A stretch of DNA of 64,000 bases, from positions 62,001 to 126,000 of the forward strand of contig NZ_JANZKZ010000002.1 in NCBI RefSeq assembly GCF_025770725.1, written 5' to 3'. Below are positions 3,962-62,015 of this stretch, in pieces; the first letter of the stretch is position 1; every line of letters starts with the position of its first letter. Source of the stretch: Sulfurospirillum oryzae. GTDB taxonomy: Bacteria > Campylobacterota > Campylobacteria > Campylobacterales > Sulfurospirillaceae. The notes under the pieces were generated by a model that saw only the letters and a list, made by a program, of their open reading frames with translations, was not told where the DNA came from and ran no database searches. The translations under genes and the position numbers were made by a program.

Positions 3962-4987
3962 GTGAAATTTAGCGAGTATATGCAAACGTGGCTCTATGGC
4001 AATGAGGGCTACTACACTAAAGAGCGAACCATTGGAAAAGAGGGTGATTTTTACACCGCTGTGAGTACGAGTATGTTCTTTGGTGGATCTATTGCTAAAC
4101 GACTGATTTCAACCATTGAGTGTGGGTTTTTAAGCCCAACTTGTCATGTGGTTGAGATCGGCGCGCACAAAGGCTATTTGCTTGCCGATATGATTCAGTT
4201 TATCTATACCCTCAAACCAGAACTTCTTCAAACCCTTACATTTATCATTGTTGAGCCTTTTGGCGCGAACCAAGCGATGCAAAAAACGTACTTTGAAGAG
4301 GCATTTGGTGATGCCATAAAACTTTTACATGTAAAGTGTTTGGAAGCGTTTACATGTAAAGAGGCATTCTTTGTTGCCAATGAGATTTTCGATGCTTTTT
4401 CGTGTGAACTCATCAAAGAAGATCAAATGCTTTTTATTGAAAATGGAAAAGCTTTTTTTGATGTAATGGATGAAGAAACGAAGGGAAAAGCGGACGAATA
4501 TGGCATTCACAAAGGAGAGCTTTGTTTAGGGTATGAGCCTTTTGCAAAAGCAATGAGTCACTGTTGTGGACGCTTTGAATTTGTCACGTTTGATTACGGC
4601 GAAAAAGAAGCGAGAGATGATTTTTCACTGCGTGTTTATGCGAGCCATCAGGTGTATCCTTTTTTTGCACTCACCGATTTAGTGGAAGAAAAGCTGCGCG
4701 AACAAAATGATTTTAATACCTTTTTTGCCAATTCAGACATTACGTATGATGTCAACTTTAGTCATCTTTTTCATGCCTTTGAAAAAAGCGGCATCAGAGT
4801 GCATGACTATGGCACTCAGATGAAAGCGTTAGTCGATTTTGGATTGATTGAGCTTTTAGAACTGTTTGCTAAAAACGTTTCAGAAAAGCAGTACGAGATA
4901 GAATTAAACCGTATAAAAACATTGATCGATCCCTCTTTTATGGGCGAGCGATTTAAAATGGCGTGTTTTCGCAAAGGAGAAGTGTAA
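3962..4987 (+). CDS. SAM-dependent methyltransferase, MidA/NDUFAF7 family (DUF185)
   Basis: The 341-residue protein has the family pattern: an N-terminal GDFYTAVSTSMFFG stretch near residue 28, then the SAM-binding VVEIGAHKGYLLADM near 62, and a later FVANEIFDAF motif. The mitochondrial relatives methylate an arginine of a complex I subunit during assembly; the bacterial substrate is not known. The start is GTG. Two perfect TTTACATGTAAA palindromes lie inside the gene only 25 bases apart (4324 and 4349), read once as LHVK and once as FTCK. The stop codon overlaps the thiS start (TAATG). Confidence 0.85.
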   Translation: MKFSEYMQTWLYGNEGYYTKERTIGKEGDFYTAVSTSMFFGGSIAKRLISTIECGFLSPTCHVVEIGAHKGYLLADMIQFIYTLKPELLQTLTFIIVEPFGANQAMQKTYFEEAFGDAIKLLHVKCLEAFTCKEAFFVANEIFDAFSCELIKEDQMLFIENGKAFFDVMDEETKGKADEYGIHKGELCLGYEPFAKAMSHCCGRFEFVTFDYGEKEARDDFSLRVYASHQVYPFFALTDLVEEKLREQNDFNTFFANSDITYDVNFSHLFHAFEKSGIRVHDYGTQMKALVDFGLIELLELFAKNVSEKQYEIELNRIKTLIDPSFMGERFKMACFRKGEV

Positions 4988-14341: not shown

Positions 14342-14351
14342 CATTAGCCCT

Positions 14352-14379
14352 AAGAGACTTCATACACGTGAAGTCTCTT
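14352..14379 (+). terminator. Rho-independent-type terminator after the dedA-like gene
   Basis: Perfect 11-bp stem AAGAGACTTCA/TGAAGTCTCTT with a 6-base loop, followed by a T-rich run. It starts 11 bases after the stop codon. Confidence 0.8.
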
Positions 14380-14381
14380 AT

Positions 14382-14486
14382 TTAAAATATCTTATTACTC
14401 AAAACAAGCATTTTCTGCTCGAAGCGATTCATAAATTCATTGTATGCTTTACGTGAGTGACTGATGGTACAGATTAAACTTTTCAT
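14382..14486 (-). CDS. Possible small protein (34 residues)
   Basis: An ORF beginning MKSLICTISHSRKAYNEF and ending NKIF lies on the minus strand between the dedA-like terminator and the S24 repressor gene. It has a GAGGAG-like ribosome site (AGAGGAGCC) 6-7 bases before its ATG, which is good for such a short frame. The peptide is basic with one cysteine, is not membrane-like, and matches no family I recognise. An alternative is that the region is only a leader or spacer. Its promoter would be divergent from, and overlap, the repressor operator. Confidence 0.4.
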   Translation of the reverse strand: MKSLICTISHSRKAYNEFMNRFEQKMLVLSNKIF

Positions 14487-14562
14487 AGAAGGCTCCTCTG
14501 TTTTAGACTTTTTTCAAAAGGTTATGAAAGAAGTCTATTAAATTTTCATTATTGTAATAAAA

Positions 14563-14598
14563 TTTGAAAATATGCTATAATAATATTTCAAAATGAAA
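14563..14598 (+). promoter_or_regulatory. Promoter with flanking inverted repeat (probable autoregulatory operator) of the S24 repressor
   Basis: An extended -10 TGCTATAAT (14573-14581) sits between inverted arms TTTGAAA (14563-14569) and TTTCAAA (14586-14592). A second, smaller repeat, TTTCA-AAA-TGAAA (14586-14598), follows. Dyads bracketing a -10 are typical of repressor autoregulation. Confidence 0.55.
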
Positions 14599-14612
14599 TG
14601 TTGGAGGATGAA

Positions 14613-15272
14613 ATGCCAGATATTTTAGCTGTTTTGCATAAAGTTAAAGATATTCTCTCTCAAGAGTTGGGCGAGCGCAAAGTCTTTGACAAAGATGTTG
14701 CCGAAGCGCTTGGTATCAATCAACTGACGCTTGCTACTATGAAAAATCGTGCCAAAATTCCTTATAAAGAGATTTTAGAGTTTTGTGCTAAACGTAAAAT
14801 TTCGATCAATTGGCTTTTATTTGATCAAGTGGTTGAAAGCTTGCAAGCCGAGACTGATAAGTTTGCTCGCGTACACTATTTTAGAGATATTTACGCTTCT
14901 GCTGGTGGAGGTGCTCTCAACGAAGAAGAAGAGGGTGAGATGATGTACCTCGATGAAGAGATTGTTCAAAAGCTCGGTGGCATTGGAATGATCAAATACA
15001 TTCAAGCGATTAATGTGTTGGGCGATTCAATGGAGCCAACGCTTTACAGTGGCGATGTTGTTTTTATCAATAAAGAATATACCAATGCTCGTAAGGCTGG
15101 CATTTATGTTGTTTCAACGCCCGTAGGTCTGTTTATTAAACGTCTTCAACTTCATGCCAATGGTACGGTTGCCCTTGTCTCTGACAATGAGGCGTATGCT
15201 CCTGAGATTATTAACGCTGAGGATGTTCAAGTGATTGGTAAAGTGGTTGGGAAGTTATCGGCGAATGTTTAA
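14613..15272 (+). CDS. CI/LexA-like transcriptional repressor: HTH plus S24 peptidase domain
   Basis: About 219 residues. Residues 5-75 form a phage-CI-type helix-turn-helix (KDVAEALGINQLTLATMKNR). Residues about 90-219 are an S24 (LexA/UmuD-like) peptidase domain with catalytic Ser139 (GDSMEP) and Lys176 (LFIKR). The Ser-to-Lys spacing of 37 equals that of LexA. An Ala97-Gly98 pair in YASAGGG is a candidate autocleavage site. The start at 14613 is preferred because GGAGGAT precedes it; an ATG at 14598 is the alternative. No phage genes surround it, so it is likely a host regulator of DNA-damage or stress response. Confidence 0.82.
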   Translation: MPDILAVLHKVKDILSQELGERKVFDKDVAEALGINQLTLATMKNRAKIPYKEILEFCAKRKISINWLLFDQVVESLQAETDKFARVHYFRDIYASAGGGALNEEEEGEMMYLDEEIVQKLGGIGMIKYIQAINVLGDSMEPTLYSGDVVFINKEYTNARKAGIYVVSTPVGLFIKRLQLHANGTVALVSDNEAYAPEIINAEDVQVIGKVVGKLSANV

Positions 15273-15279
15273 AATGCCG

Positions 15280-15316
15280 TCTTACATGTAAAGCAAAAAT
15301 GCTTTACATGTAAAGA
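15280..15316 (+). terminator. Terminator made of two tandem palindromes
   Basis: A one-mismatch copy (CTTACATGTAAA, from 15281) and a perfect copy (TTTACATGTAAA, 15303-15314) of the dispersed palindrome face each other across AAAAA. Together they form a long hairpin, TTACATGTAAAGCA against TGCTTTACATGTAA, followed by ATTTTTTTAG. It can serve the converging repressor and cyclophilin genes. Confidence 0.75.
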
Positions 15317-60735: not shown

Positions 60736-62015
60736 TTAACATCAAAGAGTTTAAAAACACAACGCTCAAACCTTTACATGTAAACCCTCTCAAGCTCTCT
60801 CAGCCGATGGGTGCGACGCTCGCATTTTTGGGCATTAAAAACTGTATGCCTTTGATGCACGGAGCGCAAGGGTGTGCTTCGTTTACGAAGGTGCTTTTCA
60901 CGAGGCACTTTAACGATCCTATCGCCATTCAAACCACTGCGGTCAATGACATTACCGCTGTTATTGATGGAGGAGAGAAGGGCATCTCTGAGGCGGTTGA
61001 GAACATCACTAAAAAGGTAACGCCTGATTTGGTGGGGCTTTTTACAACGGGTATGACCGAGACCAAAGGCGATGACATCAAAGGTGCGACACTGCTTTTA
61101 AAAGAGAAGCAAAAAATGGTCTATGTGCATACGCCTGATTTTGAGGGTGGGCTTGAGAGTGGGTGGAGTTTGAGTGTTCAAAACATCATTACGCAACTCA
61201 TTGCGCCTTGTGCCCGTGTTCGTAAAGACAAAGCACTTCTCATCCCCAATGTCAATCTAAGCCCCATTGAAGTTGAAAAACTCAAAGAGGCGTTAGAGCT
61301 TTTAGACTTTGAAGTTTTGGCTCTTCCAGACCTGAGCGATTCGCTCGATGGACACTTGGGTGTCAAACAAGGCGCACTCAGCAGTGGCGGCATTAGCGTT
61401 GCGCAGATTGAGGCCTTAGGCGATGCGGGCGTGGTTATTACGGTAGGTCGCTCAGTTAAAAAATGCGGTGAGCTTTTTTGTGAAAAGTACCCTCAAAGTA
61501 CGCATCTTCATTTTGACAGTCTGATGGGCTTAGAAGCGAGTGATGATTTTTATGCCAAACTTTTAGCTTACATGGGCAGCAAAAGCGTACCCAGTGTCGT
61601 AAAGCGATGGCGCGCACGTTTGCAAGATGTACTTTTAGATACCCACTTTTCACTGGGCAAGGCAAAGATCATCATCGCCGATGAACCCGATAGTGCTTAT
61701 GCCCTCTCTAAAGCGCTTAGGGAAGCTGGAGGGACGTGTGAGGCGTATATTTCCCAGCGTAGTGAGGTGCAAGAAGCCTTTACATGTAAAGTTGTTATTG
61801 GCGATTTGGAAGAGGTCGAAAAAGCCCTTTCTGCGGCAGATATGCTCATTACCAACTATCATGGGGAGCGTTTAGCGCATAAGCATCATAAAGCCCTGCT
61901 TATTCGAGGCTTCCCCAATTACGAGCAAGTAGGTGTTGCCCTTCGCCACAACATTTTGTATGAAGGCAGTTGCGCCTTTTTATGCGAAACAGCCAATCTT
62001 TTAGGACATCATTAA
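60723..62015 (+). CDS. nifN: Nitrogenase FeMo-cofactor scaffold protein NifN
   Basis: Beta-subunit-like half of NifEN. The 430-residue protein has LKLSQPMGATLAFLGIKNCMPLMHGAQGCASF near the N-terminus, FTTGMTETKGDDI, the VNLSP and GGISVAQIEALG segments, and ends in a HNILYEGSCAFLCE-like region. It starts at 60723 after an AAAGGAGG site, overlapping nifE. Two perfect TTTACATGTAAA copies lie inside, at 60773 (LHVN) and 61779 (FTCK). The gene ends the nif region in this window. Confidence 0.95.
   Translation: MGAMINIKEFKNTTLKPLHVNPLKLSQPMGATLAFLGIKNCMPLMHGAQGCASFTKVLFTRHFNDPIAIQTTAVNDITAVIDGGEKGISEAVENITKKVTPDLVGLFTTGMTETKGDDIKGATLLLKEKQKMVYVHTPDFEGGLESGWSLSVQNIITQLIAPCARVRKDKALLIPNVNLSPIEVEKLKEALELLDFEVLALPDLSDSLDGHLGVKQGALSSGGISVAQIEALGDAGVVITVGRSVKKCGELFCEKYPQSTHLHFDSLMGLEASDDFYAKLLAYMGSKSVPSVVKRWRARLQDVLLDTHFSLGKAKIIIADEPDSAYALSKALREAGGTCEAYISQRSEVQEAFTCKVVIGDLEEVEKALSAADMLITNYHGERLAHKHHKALLIRGFPNYEQVGVALRHNILYEGSCAFLCETANLLGHH

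Follow-up and report, generated by a model that had tools for sequence, protein, structure and literature searches.

A phage-type repressor with an S24 autoprotease that probably stands in for LexA in Sulfurospirillum and its relatives

The window, which is the whole stretch of Sulfurospirillum oryzae DNA that was analysed (64,000 nucleotides), contains the gene of a regulator in which a CI-type HTH is joined to an S24 autoprotease, and, divergent from it, a gene of 34 codons. The features of this locus and the evidence on which each is placed are as follows.

14351..14380, minus strand: hairpin just behind the 34-codon gene, a probable terminator (fold −18.5 kcal/mol, z −3.72)
14382..14486, minus strand: divergent 34-codon gene, MKSLICTISHSRKAYNEFMNRFEQKMLVLSNKIF (equal length in 24/24 genus genomes; pN/pS)
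14551..14556, minus strand: −10 element TACAAT of the 34-codon gene, exactly 28 nt from the self-operator
14576..14581, plus strand: −10 element TATAAT of the regulator gene, conserved in aligned promoters and 3 nt before the operator
14585..14599, no strand assigned: operator palindrome ATTTCA-AAA-TGAAAT, conserved in promoters of the genus and beyond
14613..15272, plus strand: regulator gene, CI-type HTH and S24 autoprotease, 219 aa (Shine-Dalgarno sequence GGAGG and orthologue starts)
14676..14828, plus strand: HTH region, residues 22-72 (PF07022 match and model helices)
Residues 37-45 of the same gene, plus strand: predicted recognition helix (model helices; helix classes agree with operator classes)
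14901..14906, plus strand: codons of the candidate cleavage site Ala97-Gly98 (invariant, 81/81)
15027..15029, plus strand: codon of catalytic Ser139 (invariant, 81/81)
15138..15140, plus strand: codon of catalytic Lys176 (invariant, 81/81)

The regulator reading frame is open from an earlier ATG at 14598 (14598-15272); the start is most likely the ATG at 14613, because GGAGG (14603-14607) precedes it and the orthologues begin at the same ATG. The N-terminus of the protein matches PF07022, the phage CI-type HTH, with 24.3 bits (cut-off 22) and is followed by a match to PF00717 (Peptidase_S24, 4.2e-19), which bears out the domain arrangement proposed in a preliminary description of this DNA. Among the PHROGs, the protein is best matched by a phage transcriptional repressor (3.1e-36). 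An AlphaFold model, run without plasmid rows, has a mean pLDDT of 84.5 and a pTM of 0.57, and the solved structures nearest to it are phage 186 CI, Thermotoga LexA, LexA-RecA complexes, lambda CI and UmuD', the top full-length match being a lambda-186 hybrid repressor. The regulator resembles LexA in its S24 domain, in the distance of 37 residues between Ser and Lys and in its Ala-Gly site, as well as in autoregulation and in recA and polymerase targets, these last being predicted here from sequence. It differs from LexA in that it scores only 26.6 bits against the LexA model TIGR00498, whose curated cut-off is 110.95, and in that Pfam finds no LexA-type winged HTH (PF01726) but the CI-type domain in its place.

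Orthologues of the regulator are found in all 24 genomes of the Sulfurospirillum-type genus and also outside it, in further families of its order, and a profile search recovered full-length homologues in 131 of 298 genomes of the class, representing 39 of 58 genera, although the lower-scoring among these 131 may be prophage copies. The preliminary description had pointed to an intact Ala97-Gly98 bond, Ser139 and Lys176; Ser96-Ala97-Gly98-Gly99, Ser139 and Lys176 are present in every one of 81 proteins (80 named relatives and the window protein), so that no orthologue examined has lost them. The assertion that the group lacks classical LexA also holds, since none of the 298 class genomes encodes a protein above the TIGR00498 cut-off in a search that does recover LexA from well-known control genomes. 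Epsilonproteobacteria have been reported to be without LexA, and Campylobacter and Helicobacter without a typical SOS response, with recA not induced by ciprofloxacin in C. jejuni and H. pylori (PMC2390758, PMC2912397). A literature search, mostly outside subscription journals, yielded no SOS regulator for Sulfurospirillum, Sulfurimonas/Sulfurovum or Campylobacterota, and no RNA measurements of damage induction for the targets predicted below.

The layout of domains and the fold match are those of the phage CI repressors of lambda and 186, to which the regulator may further be likened in a possible dual repressor/activator geometry. Moreover, phages of Campylobacter and Helicobacter carry related repressors, and relatives with 44-45% identity lie on three plasmids of Sulfurimonas, Sulfurospirillum and Aliarcobacter (L032, L033, L034). 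The phage-type HTH, the PHROG match and these mobile relatives would suit a remnant phage or mobile-element repressor that has no role in the host. This is, however, a very improbable explanation of a protein that is universal in its genus and strongly conserved, and whose operator and regulon are conserved with it. It is the sole S24 protein of the 2.63-Mb genome and, as the preliminary description had noted, lies amongst housekeeping genes with no phage genes nearby. Hence, whilst it shares a CI-type HTH and an S24 domain with prophage CI proteins, it is not prophage-encoded, and it differs from the phage repressors in having a host DNA-repair regulon; a prophage remnant was ruled out by context and conservation. 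As a separate observation, the three plasmid paralogues are paired with a divergent gene for DNA polymerase IV, an arrangement that resembles a mobile mutagenesis cassette. A Y-family polymerase gene is divergent from the regulator relative in about 11 of the 80 loci.

At the regulator promoter the palindrome ATTTCA-N3-TGAAAT is exact in 23 of the 24 aligned promoters of the genus and has one mismatch in the remaining genome. The operator that had been put forward previously, TTTGAAA-N16-TTTCAAA, can be read at 14563-14592, but its left arm is unconserved even within the genus and looser matches in the window are at chance level, and it was rejected. Outside the genus the palindrome is kept at the regulator promoter with half-sites that are specific to the lineage: ATTTCA in Sulfurospirillum-like genomes, ATGTCA/ATGACA in Sulfurovum-like genomes, the ATTGCA type in Sulfurimonas/Sulfuricurvum-like genomes and TTAACA in Nautiliaceae and Nitratiruptor. 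The classes of predicted recognition helix (NQLT/NHLT, PQTT/PQAT, SQMN/TQMN and TPEN) match the classes of operator. This co-variation is the main evidence that the regulator itself binds the palindrome; it gives support and no proof of binding, as lineage and function are confounded. Two self-promoters of Sulfurimonas-like genomes (L322, L328) have a second palindrome, of the TTGACA-N3-TGTCAA type, between the operator and the −10 element, which suggests two tandem sites in that lineage.

On the minus strand, the self-operator is followed by TACAAT, then by a ribosome-binding site and then by the 34-codon reading frame. This frame is under purifying selection: across the 24 genus genomes its pN/pS is 0.21, and the shifted frames give about 1.17. 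Its product has no match in Pfam or PHROGs, and on sequence grounds it is a previously unseen gene. Relatives of the product with the same C-terminal pattern are present in other lineages, and a motif search of Sulfurovum/Sulfurimonas-type loci found none. At three loci (L287, L290, L305) a small reading frame lies between the regulator and a divergent polymerase gene.

The regulon was sought in the S. oryzae genome by pattern searches and in selected stretches. Five exact palindromes were found (two for a reversed-pattern control), at the regulator's own promoter, before dinB, at a radical-SAM operon, inside gyrB and inside an HD-GYP gene; with up to one mismatch allowed there are 39 sites in the genome against 19 for the control. 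The dinB site lies 65 bp before this Y-family polymerase gene. The radical-SAM product matches TIGR03916, 'putative DNA modification/repair radical SAM protein', with 555 bits, and a second gene lies directly behind it. Of the sites with one mismatch, one is located 100 bp upstream of recA and another 105 bp upstream of a MerR/C5-methylase gene. Exact motifs in gyrB and the HD-GYP gene of this genome, and in thrS-like and other genes of relatives, are coding sequence and were discarded as operators. The expectation that operators would precede recA, uvr or dinB-type genes was therefore realised in part: recA and dinB have them, in the form of the conserved palindrome and not of the sequence first proposed, whereas no uvr gene is preceded by any of the genomic sites with up to one mismatch.

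Across the genus, whose genomes are non-independent observations, the palindrome with at most one mismatch holds a constant place at the regulator promoter in 24/24, at the radical-SAM promoter in 24/24 (21 exact), at 19 dinB promoters and before recA in 21/23, the exceptions being one genome without a good recA site (G015) and one whose site has two mismatches (G017). One genome has the radical-SAM gene as a pair of overlapping frames, broken by a frameshift or a sequencing error (L127/L129, G023:C1:1295674-1296841). Outside the genus a recA palindrome is found in 19 of 33 genomes that have the regulator and in none of the five readable genomes that do not, with 0-4 of 33 for shuffled promoters, and its half-site type follows that of the self-operator. 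Several regulator-bearing lineages have no recA site, among them those with a divergent Y-family polymerase gene, which look, from their promoters, to have a smaller regulon.

It could be argued that another transcription factor binds the palindromes and that the S24 gene is merely one of its targets. The palindrome does also occur ahead of defence genes, and binding by the S24 protein is something that we infer. Nevertheless, the self-site is never missing from the genus, the half-sites shift along with the recognition helix of the regulator, and recA sites are confined to regulator-bearing genomes in a comparison with five that have no regulator, so that a different binding protein appears improbable.

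In other members of the genus the same site precedes a set of accessory genes. One of them encodes an integron integrase, which scores 348 bits against TIGR02249 (cut-off 265), and another a cyclase of CBASS type (PADLOC, 6e-97); the others code for C5 methylases, an NgoPII restriction enzyme, and RhuM and KilA-N proteins. In many other bacteria integron integrases are under the control of LexA (PMC3108266). Several genomes (L170 at 1501 and 2479, L154 at 203 and 653, L156, L178, L074, L066, L067, L135, L141, L142) have, ahead of RhuM and KilA-N genes, a repeat some 100 bp long that is centred on the operator palindrome. Its copies have constant arms, three variable central bases and a TAAAnT exactly 28 nt on, and it could be the promoter of a mobile cassette.

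The distance from palindrome to −10 element (TAnnnT) is 28 nt in 21 of 21 recA promoters, in 19 of 19 dinB promoters (chromosomal copies) and in 22 of 23 radical-SAM promoters; it recurs in 18 of 19 recA promoters of other lineages and in all seven repeat-element promoters. Accessory promoters have it in 11 cases out of 16, the other five being spaced by 27 or 29 nt. TAnnnT is loosely defined, and promoters within one gene family are not independent of each other, but the agreement extends over about a dozen families that are unrelated. This shared geometry makes it likely that the accessory genes are true targets. The preliminary description had mentioned neither the radical-SAM operon nor the divergent 34-codon gene, and it contained nothing on the 28-nt geometry or on accessory targets.

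The centre of the target operator would fall near −48. A fixed spacing between a site and the −10 element is typical of regulators that touch RNA polymerase, and from the promoter sequences it is likely that the regulator makes such a contact at its targets. By contrast, the geometry of the self-promoter differs between lineages: the operator lies 3 nt past the −10 element in Sulfurospirillum-like genomes, and in many Sulfurovum-like genomes it precedes that element by about 19 nt. For the regulator's own promoter, repression is the natural reading of this arrangement. At the targets the sequence would suit either repression that damage relieves or activation, since a steric repressor needs no fixed 28-nt spacing. 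Hence the protein may be a dual regulator akin to lambda CI, repressing itself whilst the intact form activates its targets through RNA polymerase from near −48, in which case damage-triggered cleavage would let recA, dinB, the repair genes and the defence genes drop to a basal level. The near constancy of the spacing in front of unrelated genes, set against a self-promoter that varies, favours such activation. However, less recA and less translesion polymerase after damage would reverse the usual logic, and elsewhere DNA damage induces integron integrases as well as Y-family polymerases. Moreover, epsilonproteobacterial promoters are not known to have a clear −35 box, and without one the masking of −41 to −55 may also repress. 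Activation by the intact protein is considered unlikely, albeit the most serious of the alternatives.

The explanation that we favour, and consider probable, is that a phage-type repressor has been independently recruited as a chromosomal regulator of the DNA-damage response, where it stands in for LexA. The computational results on which this draws are the conserved parts of the protein, the operator and its regulon, the co-variation of operator and protein and the absence of LexA. Two marks of the S24 damage-regulator class are present, namely an S24 domain with an Ala-Gly site and a Ser-Lys dyad, and an operator at its own promoter and at those of recA and an error-prone polymerase. The original suggestion of a chromosomal LexA substitute is accordingly retained as far as the invariant residues and the recA and dinB operators are concerned, and given up for the operator sequence and the uvr sites.

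We infer DNA binding by the regulator, its RecA-stimulated cleavage and the induction of its targets by damage, including the sign of that response. A dimer would bind ATnnCA-N3-TGnnAT palindromes via its N-terminal HTH. At its own promoter it would cover the start site and shut off transcription, and at the site near −48 it would hold down recA, dinB, the TIGR03916 radical-SAM repair operon and the 34-codon gene. Once RecA filaments form on single-stranded DNA, the Ser139/Lys176 dyad is predicted to cut the Ala97-Gly98 bond, whereupon the dimers would be released from DNA and the regulon induced.

Convergent S24 damage regulators are known as HdiR in Streptococcaceae, as UmuDAb in Moraxellaceae and in Bacteroidetes (PMC8565304). 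The non-canonical LexA of Bacteroidetes is similar in that a phage-type HTH is joined to an S24 domain in which Ala-Gly, Ser and Lys are present, in its chromosomal location, in being thought to derive from a phage repressor, and in governing a damage regulon (here predicted from promoters) in bacteria that have no classical LexA; its authors describe these S24 proteins as exclusive to Bacteroidetes (PMC8565304). Unlike that system, the one described here has an ATnnCA-N3-TGnnAT operator, a fixed 28-nt target geometry, a divergent 34-codon gene and accessory defence and integron genes that carry the site, all predicted from sequence. UmuDAb of Acinetobacter is likewise an S24 replacement for LexA linked to error-prone polymerases (PMC11332147, PMC7273328), and a small gene, ddrR, lies opposite umuDAb (PMC7273328), a likeness to the 34-codon gene in position. 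UmuDAb derives from UmuD, whereas the N-terminus of the Sulfurospirillum regulator is a CI-type HTH.

If the regulator works as proposed, large environmental lineages (Sulfurospirillum, Sulfurovum, Sulfurimonas, Sulfuricurvum and others) would have an SOS-type system, built from a phage-type repressor in a group long said to have no SOS, and an S24 protein would have been recruited independently to the damage response once more. The precision of the operator makes the regulon directly testable, and the 34-codon gene becomes a candidate damage-response peptide or co-regulator. DNA damage may also be tied to phage defence and integron activity. A wider proposal, which we advance tentatively as possible rather than probable, is that the Campylobacterota possess an independent system of SOS type, with a recruited phage repressor acting both as autorepressor and as an RNA-polymerase-contacting regulator at a fixed site near −48. 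Incoming and mutually unrelated CBASS, restriction-modification, RhuM, KilA-N and integron integrase genes would share an operator-N28-promoter module that ties phage defence and gene capture to the damage signal, with the new 34-residue peptide as a further component.

A second palindrome, TTTACATGTAAA, was encountered with at most one mismatch at 28 places in the 64-kb window, where 0.47 would be expected (for example 353-364, 4324-4335, 4349-4360, 15303-15314 and 61779-61790), and it is also present at radical-SAM, dinB and RhuM promoters of relatives.
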